From Bradymonas sediminis (lineage in GTDB: Bacteria; Myxococcota_A; Bradymonadia; Bradymonadales; Bradymonadaceae), in contig NZ_CP030032.1 in the NCBI RefSeq assembly GCF_003258315.1, positions 1,464,001 to 1,528,000 of the forward strand: 64,000 bases of DNA, given 5' to 3'. This document shows, in pieces, positions 46,167-50,092 of the stretch. The notes below the pieces were generated by a model. That model worked only from the letters and a program-made list of their open reading frames with translations, made no database searches and was not told the origin of the DNA. A program made the translations under genes and the position numbers. How positions within the stretch are numbered: the first letter of the stretch is position 1; each line of letters starts with the position of its first letter.

Positions 46167-46874
46167 CTATTTTAGATTTAAGATCGGCCAATCGTAGGCG
46201 CGCGCGTTGGTGCGCATGCGAAAGTCCGGGTTGACCGCGCAGGGGTGCCCGACGACCGAGAGCAGCGGGATGTCGGAGCCGCTGTCGGCATAGGCAAAGG
46301 AGCCGTCCAAATCCAGCCCGTGTTTCTCGCCGTATTGGCGCACCCACAGCGCCTTCGACGCGCCGGCGAGCACCGGCTTGAGCAGGCGCCCGGTCGCGAT
46401 GCCGTCCTTCATCTCGAGGCGGTTTGCCACGAAGTCATCCACGCCCAAAAAGTCCGCCAGCGGGGCGGTGATGACGTCAATCGCCCCGGTGATCAGCACC
46501 TGCCGGTGCCCCTGCTCCTTGGACTTGGCCACGAGCGAGCGCGCACCCTCAAAGATATTGGGGCGAATGACATTCTCAAAGATCTCTTCGCCCAGAACGA
46601 CGAGACGATCTTCGGAGAACCCGGCGTAATTCTTATAAAAATGCACGTTAAAGAGGCGTCGGTCGAATTTGTCGGCCAGCCAATACGCCGGCAAGCTCGC
46701 CAAAAGCCCCGCCGTCTTGCTCAACTTCTTGCTCATCATCGGCGAGTTCATCGCGTAATACGCGTAGGCGTGCACGACATTGGTCGAAATCAGCGTGCCG
46801 TCGACGTCGTAAAACGCGGCGGTCGGCCTCTTTGGCTTCTTATGTTTATGGGACTCTTCGGCTGCTGCACTCAT
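46167..46874 (-). CDS. HAD-IB family phosphatase
   Basis: 235 aa from ATG 46874 with GGAG upstream. The N-terminal motif 'AAFYDVDGTLI' gives the nucleophile and acid Asp (DxD), 'VLITGAIDV' is motif II (Thr), and 'YADSGSDIPLLSVVGHPCAVNPD' in essence is motif IV, as in SerB/CicA-type HAD-IB enzymes. Members often accompany PlsC acyltransferases and dephosphorylate lipid or polyol phosphates. It is the first gene of the operon, 129 bp before the LarA-like gene, with a likely promoter upstream. The hydrolysis of a phospholipid intermediate is inferred from context. Confidence 0.88.
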   Translation of the reverse strand: MSAAAEESHKHKKPKRPTAAFYDVDGTLISTNVVHAYAYYAMNSPMMSKKLSKTAGLLASLPAYWLADKFDRRLFNVHFYKNYAGFSEDRLVVLGEEIFENVIRPNIFEGARSLVAKSKEQGHRQVLITGAIDVITAPLADFLGVDDFVANRLEMKDGIATGRLLKPVLAGASKALWVRQYGEKHGLDLDGSFAYADSGSDIPLLSVVGHPCAVNPDFRMRTNARAYDWPILNLK

Positions 46875-46932
46875 GTTGGCGTCTCCGCGCAAATTATAGG
46901 ACCTACTCCACCACTTATTGGAGTGGAGCGCT

Positions 46933-46962
46933 GATCTAGTGGTCCAGCTAAATTACTGTCAA
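46933..46962 (-). promoter_or_regulatory. Predicted promoter of the lipid operon
   Basis: On the minus strand TTGACA (46962-46957, perfect -35) and TAGATC (46938-46933, weak -10) are 18 bp apart. A palindromic arm pair CTCCAC (46906-46911)/GTGGAG (46923-46928) lies between this promoter and the gene and could be an operator. A perfect TATAAT at 46898-46893 lacks a good -35. Confidence 0.5.
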
Positions 46963-47015
46963 GACGCGGTTTTTTGTGACTGGGGAGTCAGCGGGTGGCG
47001 GGGCGTGACGGATAG

Positions 47016-47084
47016 AGGAGCGCGGGCCTCCCGGCCCGCCTTGCGCGAAGGCCTTGCAGTGCGGGCGGGGACGCCCGCGCTCCT
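47016..47084. repeat. REP-like palindromic unit 1 (short form)
   Basis: Outer arms AGGAGCGCGGGC and GCCCGCGCTCCT are exact complements; inner GC-rich arms CCCGGCCCGCC/GCGGGCGGGG strengthen the hairpin. This copy lacks the central 'gcaaagatNctt' insert of the longer units. A spacer AGCTTAGCGCGACGGATTA follows. Confidence 0.85.
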
Positions 47085-47103
47085 AGCTTAGCGCGACGGA
47101 TTA

Positions 47104-47195
47104 AGGAGCGCGGGCCTCCCGGCCCGCCTTGCGCGAAGGCGCAAAGATACTTAGTGCGCCGGCCTTGCAGTGCGGGCGGGGACGCCCGCGCTCCT
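47104..47195. repeat. REP-like palindromic unit 2
   Basis: Full-length 92-bp unit with both outer arms and the central insert around 47140-47160. Separated from unit 1 by a 19-bp spacer and from unit 3 by an almost identical one. Confidence 0.85.
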
Positions 47196-47214
47196 TGCTT
47201 AGCGCGACGGATTA

Positions 47215-47306
47215 AGGAGCGCGGGCCTCCCGGCCCGCCTTGCGCGAAGGCGCAAAGATGCTTAGCGCGCCGGCCTTGCAGTGCGGGCGGGGACGTTTGT
47301 GCTCCT
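47215..47306. repeat. REP-like palindromic unit 3, decayed right arm
   Basis: Same 92-bp unit, but the right arm reads GGGGACGTTTGTGCTCCT instead of GGGGACGCCCGCGCTCCT. Last copy before the transposase gene. Confidence 0.8.
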
Positions 47307-47414
47307 TAAATTCTTATTTGCATCCTCGCCTAAATTGAGACGGGTCGCTAGGGTAATGCACCGCTATGCGCGCGGAGACGTGCGCACTTCACGAACTCGA
47401 CAGGGGAAACAGCT

Positions 47415-48059
47415 ATGGATGGCGACGTGTTTCGAGGGTGGTATAGCCGTGGGTATTTGCCGCATTTTGATAGTGACTCCGTGCCGCAAATGGTGACGTA
47501 TCGGCTGGCGGATTCGCTGCCTCATTCGGTGGTGCGGCGTCTTCTCAATGAGACAACGCAAGGCGACCCGGAGCGTCGGGAGCGCTATGAAGCGTTGCTT
47601 GACGGTGGGTACGGGGCGTGTGTGTTGCGACAGCCTGAGAACGCTCAAATCGTTATCGACGCTTGGGAATTCTATGACGGCTCGCGCTATCGACTCTTGG
47701 ATTGGTGCGTTATGCCCAATCACGTTCATATTACCTATGAGCGACCCACGGTTGGCTTATCAACCCTTGTCAAAGCGTGGAAGACCTATACGTCGAAGCA
47801 GATCAAAACGCGCTTGGGAACTCACGGGGATGGGGAGGCGTTGTGGCAGGCGGGCTTTTTTGACCGCTTTGCCCGCGATGCGCGGCATCTCTTTCATATG
47901 CAATGCTATATTTGGCTGAATCCAGTTCGGGCTGGCTTGGTCGATGACCCTTTCGAATGGCCATATTCGAGTATTCATAACCATGCGCGCTTTCGGCCGT
48001 CGATTATGCGTTGGTGGGAGCAGCAAAAAGAGCGGTTTTGGGATGGGGGCGGTTATTGA
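47415..48059 (+). CDS. REP-associated tyrosine transposase (RAYT, Y1 family)
   Basis: 214 aa. Domesticated relative of IS200/IS605 transposases thought to process and spread REP palindromes. The HUH metal motif is 'MPNHVHI' (about residue 104); the catalytic Tyr lies in 'CYIWLNPVRAGLV' (about residue 170). 'YRLADSLPHSVV' near the N-terminus also fits the family. RBS GGGGAA upstream of ATG 47415. Three REP-like units lie on its left and two on its right, the expected arrangement for a RAYT and its cognate repeats. The gene is intact, with no inverted-repeat IS ends of its own, so it is not a standard IS. Confidence 0.92.
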   Translation: MDGDVFRGWYSRGYLPHFDSDSVPQMVTYRLADSLPHSVVRRLLNETTQGDPERRERYEALLDGGYGACVLRQPENAQIVIDAWEFYDGSRYRLLDWCVMPNHVHITYERPTVGLSTLVKAWKTYTSKQIKTRLGTHGDGEALWQAGFFDRFARDARHLFHMQCYIWLNPVRAGLVDDPFEWPYSSIHNHARFRPSIMRWWEQQKERFWDGGGY

Positions 48060-48068
48060 GTAGGGTAA

Positions 48069-48160
48069 AGGAGCGCGGGCCTCCCGGCCCGCCTTGCGCG
48101 AAAGCGCAAAGATGCTTGGCGCGACGGCCTTGCAGTGCGGGCGGGGACGCCCGCGCTCCT
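48069..48160. repeat. REP-like palindromic unit 4
   Basis: Full 92-bp unit starting 10 bp after the transposase stop, with outer arms AGGAGCGCGGGC/GCCCGCGCTCCT intact and the same spacer (one base different) after it. Confidence 0.85.
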
Positions 48161-48179
48161 AGCTTAGCGCGACGAATTA

Positions 48180-48260
48180 AGGAGCGCGGGCCTCCCGGCC
48201 CGCCTTGCGCGATAGCGCAAACGCCGGCTTCGCAGTGCGGGCGGGGACGCCCGCGCTCCT
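48180..48260. repeat. REP-like palindromic unit 5
   Basis: 81-bp variant with a shortened centre ('gatagcgcaaacgccggctt'); outer arms intact. It ends 17 bp before the stop of the convergent lipoprotein gene and could also act as its transcription stop. Confidence 0.85.
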
Positions 48261-48276
48261 TGTTTCTTATTTGAGA

Positions 48277-50092
48277 CTACGGAAGCTCGGCCGAGTAGAC
48301 GGTCACCTCATCGTCAAAGAGGCGAGTGTCCGTTTCGCTTTCGGACTGGACCACGGTCCAGTAGACGCGCTCGCCGCGCACGTCGATGACCGGCTTGCGG
48401 CACGCCTCTCTGGGCATGGTCGCCAGTTCGATCGGCGGCGCCGACAGGTCCGCCGGCACGATGTTGAGCGTGATGGTGTCCGGGTCGGACGCGTCAGGGA
48501 TGTCCGCGAAGTATAGCCAGTGGCTGCCGGGGTCGTCAGAGTTCCCGCCGCCGATCGAGACCACCGAATTACAATACCCTTTGGCGCCGCGGGGCGAAAT
48601 ATACAAGCGCGCCACTTCCGCGAAGCGCAGCGTGCCGTGGGTAGCGACCGCCAGGCCTCCCGTAGGCGCTCCCGCTTCCTCCGCCTTGGTCTCCACGATC
48701 ATCGTTCGGTAGTCTCCTGGCAGTGGGTTGACCCCGAACGAATAGTCGGTGTCATCGACGCGATCGAAGAGCAGCGTCGCCTTCTGCTCCTCGTAGAGCC
48801 ACAATTCATCGCCCCGCGGGTGCAGCAAGCCGAAGGCTCCATCGAGCGACACCGCGCGGCTGTGAGCACCCCCGTAGTCGTCGACCGACACGAGCTCGTC
48901 GCCGGTGCTCAGATCGATGAGGGATTGGGTATCGCCCACCGAATCTCCCAGTACCGCCACGCCGCTGCTGAAAACCGCCAACGTGGTCCCGGTCAACTCC
49001 ACAGCCGTCGACGAGTCGTCCACTGGCTCGATGCGATAGGACTTGCGTCCATAAGAGTCCGACGACAACTGCGAGGTCATCCACTTGCCCCAAAATGAGA
49101 AATAGGCGCGGGTGCCATCGGACGCCTCGACGTAATCCGTTTGGTGGAACGTGCCATCCGCCTGGTTGTAGCTGATGATGTCCTCGGAGTCGTCGTTAAA
49201 GTGAAGCCATCCGTCGCGTTGAGTCACCGTATAGTTGATGAGACCTCGTTCCTGGTCTGGGCCGATGAGTTCGACGCTCTGGTCGGGCCCGTCGAGTATC
49301 AGGGTGCGGAGAAAAAATTCAGTACTGTTATCGATCAGCGTCTTTCCGCCGCGATAATCGTATCGACGGTGGGCATTCACACCGGAATCGCTGTGGACAA
49401 CGGAGCCCGTCAGCGGGTCGATGACGCGTAGGGTCGCGGCGGGCGTGGTGGGGGGATCGAACGGTTCCTCGCAGTATTTGTCGGGGTTGTAGGCGAGGGT
49501 GGCCGTTACCCCGTGTGTGCTCCACGACGGTCCAGTATTGAAATATCCGCCCAGGTGCACCGAGCGTTGACTCCAAACCGGGGCACCGTTTGGCTCAACG
49601 ACGGAGACGCTGCCGAACCATTCGGGCGCATACGTGTAGGGGAATTGAACGCCGTCGTTTTCCGGGCACACGTCGCGAAGGTCATGCATCAGCCAGGCAT
49701 AGCCGTGGGCGGGATGCACGTCCGCCAGCGCGGATTCATATGTGTTGACGACCGTTCCCTGGGCGTCGACCCACTCGGTCGTGCAGTCAATCGGCTTATC
49801 ACGCCCCTCGCATTGGGTGCCCTGGGCGAACACGAGATGCTCCCCGGTCGCAGCCTTTAGGTATCCCTTTCGGGTAAAGAGCTCCTTGGCTTGTATCTGC
49901 CGCCGCTCGTCGCGCCAGTCCAGCACCTCAAAGCCCTCTCGAGGCCGTTTGGTCACCGGAATCGACTGCGTCTCCCTGGCACGTCCCAGCGTCGGCGCAG
50001 GTCGACGGCGTTGATTGGTCATTGTCGGGGCCGCAGGCGAGCAGTGTGCAGAGCGCAGCCGGTACGAACAAATAAGAAAACCTGTTGGGCAT
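48277..50092 (-). pseudogene. Lipoprotein gene interrupted by a frameshift (or sequencing error)
   Basis: An ATG at 50092 starts a textbook lipoprotein signal, 'MPNRFSYLFVPAALCTLLAC', and continues 'GPDNDQSTPS...' to a TGA at 49930-49928 (54 residues). The downstream body (about 540 aa ending at 48277) lies in the +1 frame and by itself would start at an internal ATG (50022) with an implausible basic leader and no export signal. Skipping one base between about 50020 and 49930 joins them, giving a protein of about 600 aa. The body has 'YAWLMHDLRD', many Gly/Asp turns and Cys pairs, and looks like a beta-propeller similar in style to the genes at 36754 and 59465. The function is unknown. Confidence 0.7.

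Follow-up and report, generated by a model that had tools for sequence, protein, structure and literature searches.

A RAYT transposase gene flanked by GGAGC-footed inverted REP pairs in Bradymonas sediminis

Within a window of 64,000 nt from the genome of Bradymonas sediminis, to which all coordinates refer unless marked as genome positions, we directly inspected the sequence of a locus at 47016-48260 (Table 1). Five repeat units of 69, 92, 92, 92 and 81 bp were found, three to the left and two to the right of a stop-free reading frame for a RAYT protein. This inspection and an alignment of the units confirmed the original prediction of five units with 19-bp spacers around an intact transposase gene. 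The predicted unit lengths of 92, 81 and 69 bp stood as well, while each unit proved to be a pair of inverted REP hairpins rather than the single palindrome that had been described. Each REP consists of a foot, a 7-bp stem and a TCCC loop; nine of ten are intact, and all nine of these carry the foot GGAGC. The left REP reads GGAGC-GCGGGCC-TCCC-GGCCCGC and the right REP, on the minus strand, GGAGC-GCGGGCG-TCCC-CGCCCGC. They are one compensated base pair apart, the last stem pair being C:G on the left and G:C on the right. A 23-nt REP pattern (up to three mismatches) gave nine matches at the locus, all of them exact, against a mean of 0.05 and a maximum of 1 in 100 dinucleotide shuffles, and the array is thus not due to chance.

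Table 1. Features of the RAYT locus, in coordinates of the 64,000-nt window.
Feature	Position	Strand	Remarks
REPIN unit 1	47016..47084		69 bp; units compared by alignment
REP left type, foot GGAGC + hairpin	47017..47039	+	pattern match
REP right type	47061..47083	-	pattern match
Spacer, 19 bp	47085..47103		
REPIN unit 2	47104..47195		92 bp
REP left type	47105..47127	+	pattern match
REP right type	47172..47194	-	pattern match
Spacer, 19 bp	47196..47214		
REPIN unit 3	47215..47306		92 bp; right REP decayed
REP left type, inverted partner decayed	47216..47238	+	pattern match
Decayed REP, right arm of unit 3	47283-47305		four C-to-T changes vs consensus
Duplicated flank TTCTTATTTG, 10 bp	47311..47320	+	second copy 48264-48273, just outside right array
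RAYT / TnpAREP-like HUH transposase, 214 aa	47415..48059	+	NHVH 102-105, WQ 144-145, Y165 in YIWLNP
REPIN unit 4	48069..48160		92 bp
REP left type	48070..48092	+	pattern match
REP right type	48137..48159	-	pattern match
Spacer, 19 bp	48161..48179		
REPIN unit 5	48180..48260		81 bp
REP left type	48181..48203	+	pattern match
REP right type	48237..48259	-	pattern match

The outer arms AGGAGCGCGGGC / GCCCGCGCTCCT, predicted to be identical over 12 bp except for one decayed arm, were indeed identical in units 1, 2, 4 and 5. In unit 3, the right arm carried four changes, all C to T and within five bases. This decayed REP is the one nearest to the RAYT start, and its changes look like a cytosine deamination patch or like a hairpin lost from the 5' leader under selection. 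Read by alignment, the 69- and 81-bp units would be 92-bp units minus parts of a central insert, which in unit 1 may have been lost between GGC microhomologies. Such deletions account for both shorter units, and to this extent the predicted order of copying events is readable; the full order cannot be proven. The spacer core GCTTAGCGCGACGG was found at 47086, 47197, 47260, 48114 and 48162, with one-change versions inside units 3 and 4, and spacer and central insert may have a common origin. Both arrays are followed at nearly equal offset by the sequence TTCTTATTTG, the left copy preceding the RAYT gene and the right copy the flanking gene, as if array end and flank had been duplicated. Rfam had no match in 46800-48400, and a promoter scan of the locus found none.

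The gene encodes an HUH tyrosine transposase of the RAYT type, in agreement with the original prediction. Its protein exceeded the cut-off of NCBIfam NF047646 REP_Tyr_transpos (82 vs 80 bits), matched Pfam Y1_Tnp and remained below the cut-off of the IS200 model (26.8 vs 55 bits). Across 15 aligned sequences, NH.H 102-105, W144, D150, R154, Y165, N169 and P170 showed no variation; the Y motif is Y---NP (YIWLNP), and the HuH-Y distance amounts to 60 residues. A profile search of solved chains returned E. coli TnpAREP (4er8) as best match, with W144/Q145/D150/R151/R154 aligned to W94/Q95/E100/H101/R104, a region discussed as the GTAG-contact region in the main text of PMC6006769. The E. coli TnpAREP-REP complex 4er8 was also the closest solved fold (E 1.9e-9) to an AlphaFold2 model of the protein (mean pLDDT 82.6, pTM 0.77).

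With its single-tyrosine HUH transposase (Y---NP) flanked by REP hairpins in inverted pairs (REPINs), the locus is a REPtron, an already known kind of pair. One might instead think of a classical IS200/IS605 insertion sequence that moves as gene plus ends, with the hairpins as ends, since the protein is of the HUH/Y1 type and weakly matches the IS200 model, and since a 10-bp direct repeat, TTCTTATTTG, is found after each array. We consider this very improbable. There was no near-identical second copy of the gene, the best in-genome paralogue being 63-64% identical with different REPs, and near-identical gene and end copies, by which such an element would be recognized, were likewise not found. 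Moreover, the Y motif differs from the Y---Q of IS200 (PMC6006769), the hairpins form multiple inverted pairs, and in sister genomes they far outnumber the gene.

The B. sediminis genome is a single 5.05-Mb contig in which the REP pattern (up to three mismatches) matched 11 times, nine of these at the RAYT locus. The two stray REPs, at genome positions 3704854 (one mismatch) and 4782862 (two compensated mismatches), both lie after a stop codon and ahead of the following start, as read from their flanks. The GGAGC REP is thus essentially confined to the neighbourhood of its RAYT. The genomic dispersal that had been expected was largely absent, and the genome came close to holding no other copies, an outcome named beforehand as speaking against the prediction. 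The REPs of a REPtron usually, though not by definition, occur in numerous extragenic copies in their host; this was seen in the sister genomes and not in this one. The mobility of this copy is therefore only putative. Nine Y1_Tnp matches were present in the genome, with further RAYTs of the same branch at genome positions 3846059 (63-64% identity) and 2524659 (35%). The former is the paralogue mentioned above (dN 0.29 and dS 1.62 over 212 codons, dS being near saturation), and it has its own REPs with GGACC or GGAGC and GCGGACGgctCGTCCGC-type hairpins in few dispersed copies. Elsewhere, a third REP-like family, GGACCGCGGGCGTCTCGCCCGC, occurs in four exact copies within 10 kb at genome positions 389715-400048 (L068-L071) with no Y1 transposase match nearby. 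At genome positions 709435-712731 (L007) another Y1 gene is flanked by repeat copies with 67-bp spacing and GGCGGGGCAAGCCCGCC hairpins, and its region holds a second repeat with CCGCCGGC hairpins.

We searched 57 genomes, B. sediminis included, for the RAYT protein; 26 had any match, and nine, all from the same family, matched at 1.4e-50 or better. This RAYT is patchily distributed, with nine of 21 family genomes encoding it. Summed over two patterns matched exactly, one with a 4-nt and one with a 3-nt loop, REP counts were 14 (B. sediminis), 84, 61, 48, 44, 163, 318, 3 and 7 in the nine RAYT genomes, and a chance-like 0, 0, 1, 0, 1, 5, 0, 1, 0, 4, 0 and 4 in the twelve without. The difference (3-318 vs 0-5) gave a Mann-Whitney p of 1.4e-4, a partly circular contrast that is favoured by patterns built from REPs of RAYT genomes. 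Read backwards, the patterns matched 0-2 times per genome and search. The genome with only three matches (G019) probably has REPs with other stems. That the repeats are cognate to the RAYT, as originally predicted, is most likely, and the same repeats were not found in transposase-less relatives (12/12 family genomes with only 0-5 chance-like matches). RAYT homologues had different REPs of their own alongside, each RAYT thus with its own REP family, and locus L099 of a Bradymonadaceae bacterium had its REP family in common with locus L027 (genome G015). Two-mismatch REP matches in sister genomes were often compensated, for example GCGGGC/GCCCGC changed to GCGGAC/GTCCGC in G008. The 40 fetched stretches held 48 REPs, of which 43 lay outside ORFs called by a simple script, compared with 25.6% of random positions.

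These data also bear on the idea of a tandem array or terminator cluster with another role, next to which the RAYT would lie by chance or use the repeats as insulators. Nearly all copies in the B. sediminis genome are indeed at the locus, and the last hairpin (48234-48257) is terminator-like, with four such sites against 2.1 expected and so not above chance. In RAYT homologues of other genera and phyla, however, the hairpins differ in sequence and keep the same architecture, and REP copy numbers follow RAYT presence, which leaves this idea hardly credible. The analysis establishes the gene, its hairpins with stem changes that compensate each other and the array beside it, and shows that RAYT and REPs occur together within the family. 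Very probably, then, we are dealing with a domesticated HUH tyrosine transposase of the IS200/IS605 type (RAYT, TnpAREP) with REPINs of its own REPs on either side, in a locally amplified locus that belongs to a branch with GGNN feet.

Compatible with this reading is a recent acquisition of the REPtron, in which gene and array arrived by joint transfer and had too little time for REP spread. The local confinement of the REPs, the patchy occurrence (9/21 family genomes) and an orphan gene to the right of the locus, present in 1/19 genomes, would all fit. The HAD gene to the left was present in 19/19; because the orphan gene has no homologue in the 18 others, no empty site could be demonstrated among these genomes. 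On the other side, a paralogue with its own REPs resides in the same genome, the RAYT groups with family sequences, and low copy number could equally reflect a weak or decaying RAYT. We therefore regard recent acquisition as possible but rather doubtful.

In REPtrons the protein binds the folded single-stranded REP, the tyrosine cuts beside the REP and the strand is transferred, and in at least one system foot bases help to select the cut site (PMC8266576). By homology, the RAYT described here would bind its REP as a folded single strand via foot and loop, and Y165 would nick beside the REP and so mobilize the REPIN; strand-specific binding and cleavage by this protein are putative. The REPINs have probably multiplied almost only beside the gene, each unit being duplicated in tandem together with its spacer. 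They would have hardly dispersed in this genome, while sister REPtrons of the family would have reached copy numbers in the tens or hundreds, mostly between genes.

Among described systems, judged by published features, the nearest is subclass 2.7 of REPtron class 2 (Quentin et al. 2018, PMC6006769). Shared features are the HUH motif NHVH, Y---NP, W followed by Q, D/R at E. coli positions 100/101, the HuH-Y distance of 60 residues, a gene flanked by inverted REP pairs and an own REP family per gene. D150/R151, HuH-Y distance and length match subclass 2.7, whereas the foot (GGAGC vs GT[AG]G) and the Y motif (YIWLNP vs YI[LR][NQ]NP) do not, and the REP is hardly dispersed in its own genome. The GTAG REP super-family (Di Nocera et al. 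2013, PMC3733652) likewise has a 7-bp stem, a short loop, head-to-head dimers and a mostly extragenic location (here in sister genomes), but its feet are GTAG, GYAG, GYRG, GTRG, GTMG and GTGG, while here foot bases 1-2 are GG and bases 3-4 variable. Fold and aligned foot-contact region are shared with E. coli TnpAREP/REP (4er8) and with the Stenotrophomonas and Marinomonas REPtrons (PMC8266576); the E. coli REP, however, has a bulged stem and a strict GTAG, where the REP described here has GGAGC and a 7-bp stem that is perfectly paired. Class 3 TnpAY1 (PMC6006769), found in Acidobacteria, Planctomycetes and Proteobacteria, resembles the locus in that a foot other than GTAG accompanies an HUH gene, but differs by a Y----Q type motif and a CnGA foot, as against Y---NP and GGNN. 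With GGAGC in 9/9 intact REPs, the locus lacks the 5' GT[AG]G foot of the GTAG super-family and canonical class 2 REPs. It is also distinct from CGTC REPs, which have a CGTC foot and no adjoining transposase (PMC3733652), and from TIRtrons, whose terminal inverted repeats contain GGGGWSAS (PMC3733652), the arms here starting with AGGAGCGCGGGC.

The feet reported in these main texts are GT[AG]G in subclasses 2.2, 2.4, 2.5, 2.7 and 2.8 and CnGA in class 3 (PMC6006769), GTAG and CGTC with GTAG changes at positions 2 and 3 (PMC3733652), and GTAG or GTGG (PMC2817692). GGAG, GGAC and GGTG did not occur as word starts in the main texts of PMC6006769 and PMC3733652, nor did GGAG in that of PMC2817692. 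Our literature search, which covered main texts, found neither the GGNN foot nor its switching, and no paper on REPs of Bradymonadia, consistent with the earlier impression that the lineage is little described. The RAYT-REP pair is thus of a known kind, and within this literature the GGNN foot and its switching are the new part.

To survey the foot, we took the best 80 of 258 RAYT relatives from named genomes, chosen by protein alone, and sought repeated hairpins by script within 1.5 kb of each. A repeated hairpin family was found beside 68 of the 80 and none beside 12. Its foot was GGNN in 62 loci (58 on the called side, four on the other side), GTAG in three, all Betaproteobacteria, and something else in three. 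Conservation alone sufficed to orient 46 loci, of which 40 had GG at foot positions 1-2 and three had GTAG. The consensus in relatives is GG, two variable bases and mostly C (GGNNC), with feet alternating among GGAG, GGAC, GGAA, GGTG and GGTC. By protein and foot sequence, the locus thus is placed in a cross-phylum RAYT branch with GGNN feet that differ from the canonical GT[AG]G.

The compared sequences indicate that the foot changes together with the RAYT, and the best evidence for this joint change is a contrast within Verrucomicrobiota among REPs with the common stem GCGAGTC/GACTCGC. GGAAC was carried by 11/11 listed copies in two genomes with a GGAAC-flanked RAYT (7/7 and 4/4) and by 1/139 in three genomes with a GGACC-flanked RAYT (0/32, 0/44 and 1/63), counts of listed copies that are non-independent within a genome and that leave out four of nine genomes searched and 22 of 54 copies of one GGAC genome. 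The copies listed from the latter three carried GGACC or GGAGC, one copy having another foot. Given the dependence among copies, Fisher and binomial values computed from them would exaggerate the certainty, and we do not rely on them. Feet also clustered on a quick tree of 86 rows, with 34 label changes against a shuffled mean of 53.7 (0/200 shuffles as low); this tree carried hand-curated foot labels, had 22 rows without a called foot and some loci under two ids (L026/L097, L047/L092), and was built after L116 (45 aa), L032 and L049 had been dropped. The same tree gave 21 foot changes among 64 labelled rows, pointing to frequent switching.

Residues 145 (E. coli Q95), 76 and 15 ranked high in mutual information with foot bases over 42 divergent rows. 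H15 was confined to feet with T as base 3 (12/12 labelled H15 rows), and three labelled rows with this base lacked H15. Independent-pair (phylogenetic) sign tests of protein-foot covariation fell short of significance, and the covariation of these residues is suggestive only. A guide rule at fixed positions was unsupported: for a dinucleotide from foot bases 3+4 (or 2+4) at 28 fixed positions, the smallest p was 0.03 uncorrected in 39 divergent loci (from 64 labelled, 56 with two or more usable copies), and no predicted cleavage dinucleotide was conserved. We tentatively propose, at slightly less than even chance, an undescribed cross-phylum REPtron branch with a GGNN guide whose last two bases shift with the RAYT, and thus natural reprogrammed guide/transposase pairs with predictable cleavage or insertion sites.

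In the literature examined, knowledge of how RAYTs choose and cut REPs comes from three tested systems, all with GTAG feet. The natural set of RAYTs found here, with GGAC or GGAA feet on one hairpin and GGAG or GGTG on others, offers a direct way to test the guide hypothesis by exchanging proteins and REPs. It also suggests that searches requiring GTAG have missed part of the REPs in Verrucomicrobiota, Acidobacteriota, Myxococcota and others. Two further arrangements were seen among the relatives. In G010, a RAYT-like gene (L049) with MGSHAH in place of PNHVH is located within an array of 15 hairpins with a 30-bp period, preceded by GGAGG. In L031 and L030, REP arrays abut the RAYT frame or overlap with it, so that in the flanking frame the repeats translate into peptide repeats of the 'GDAGVSPA' type.
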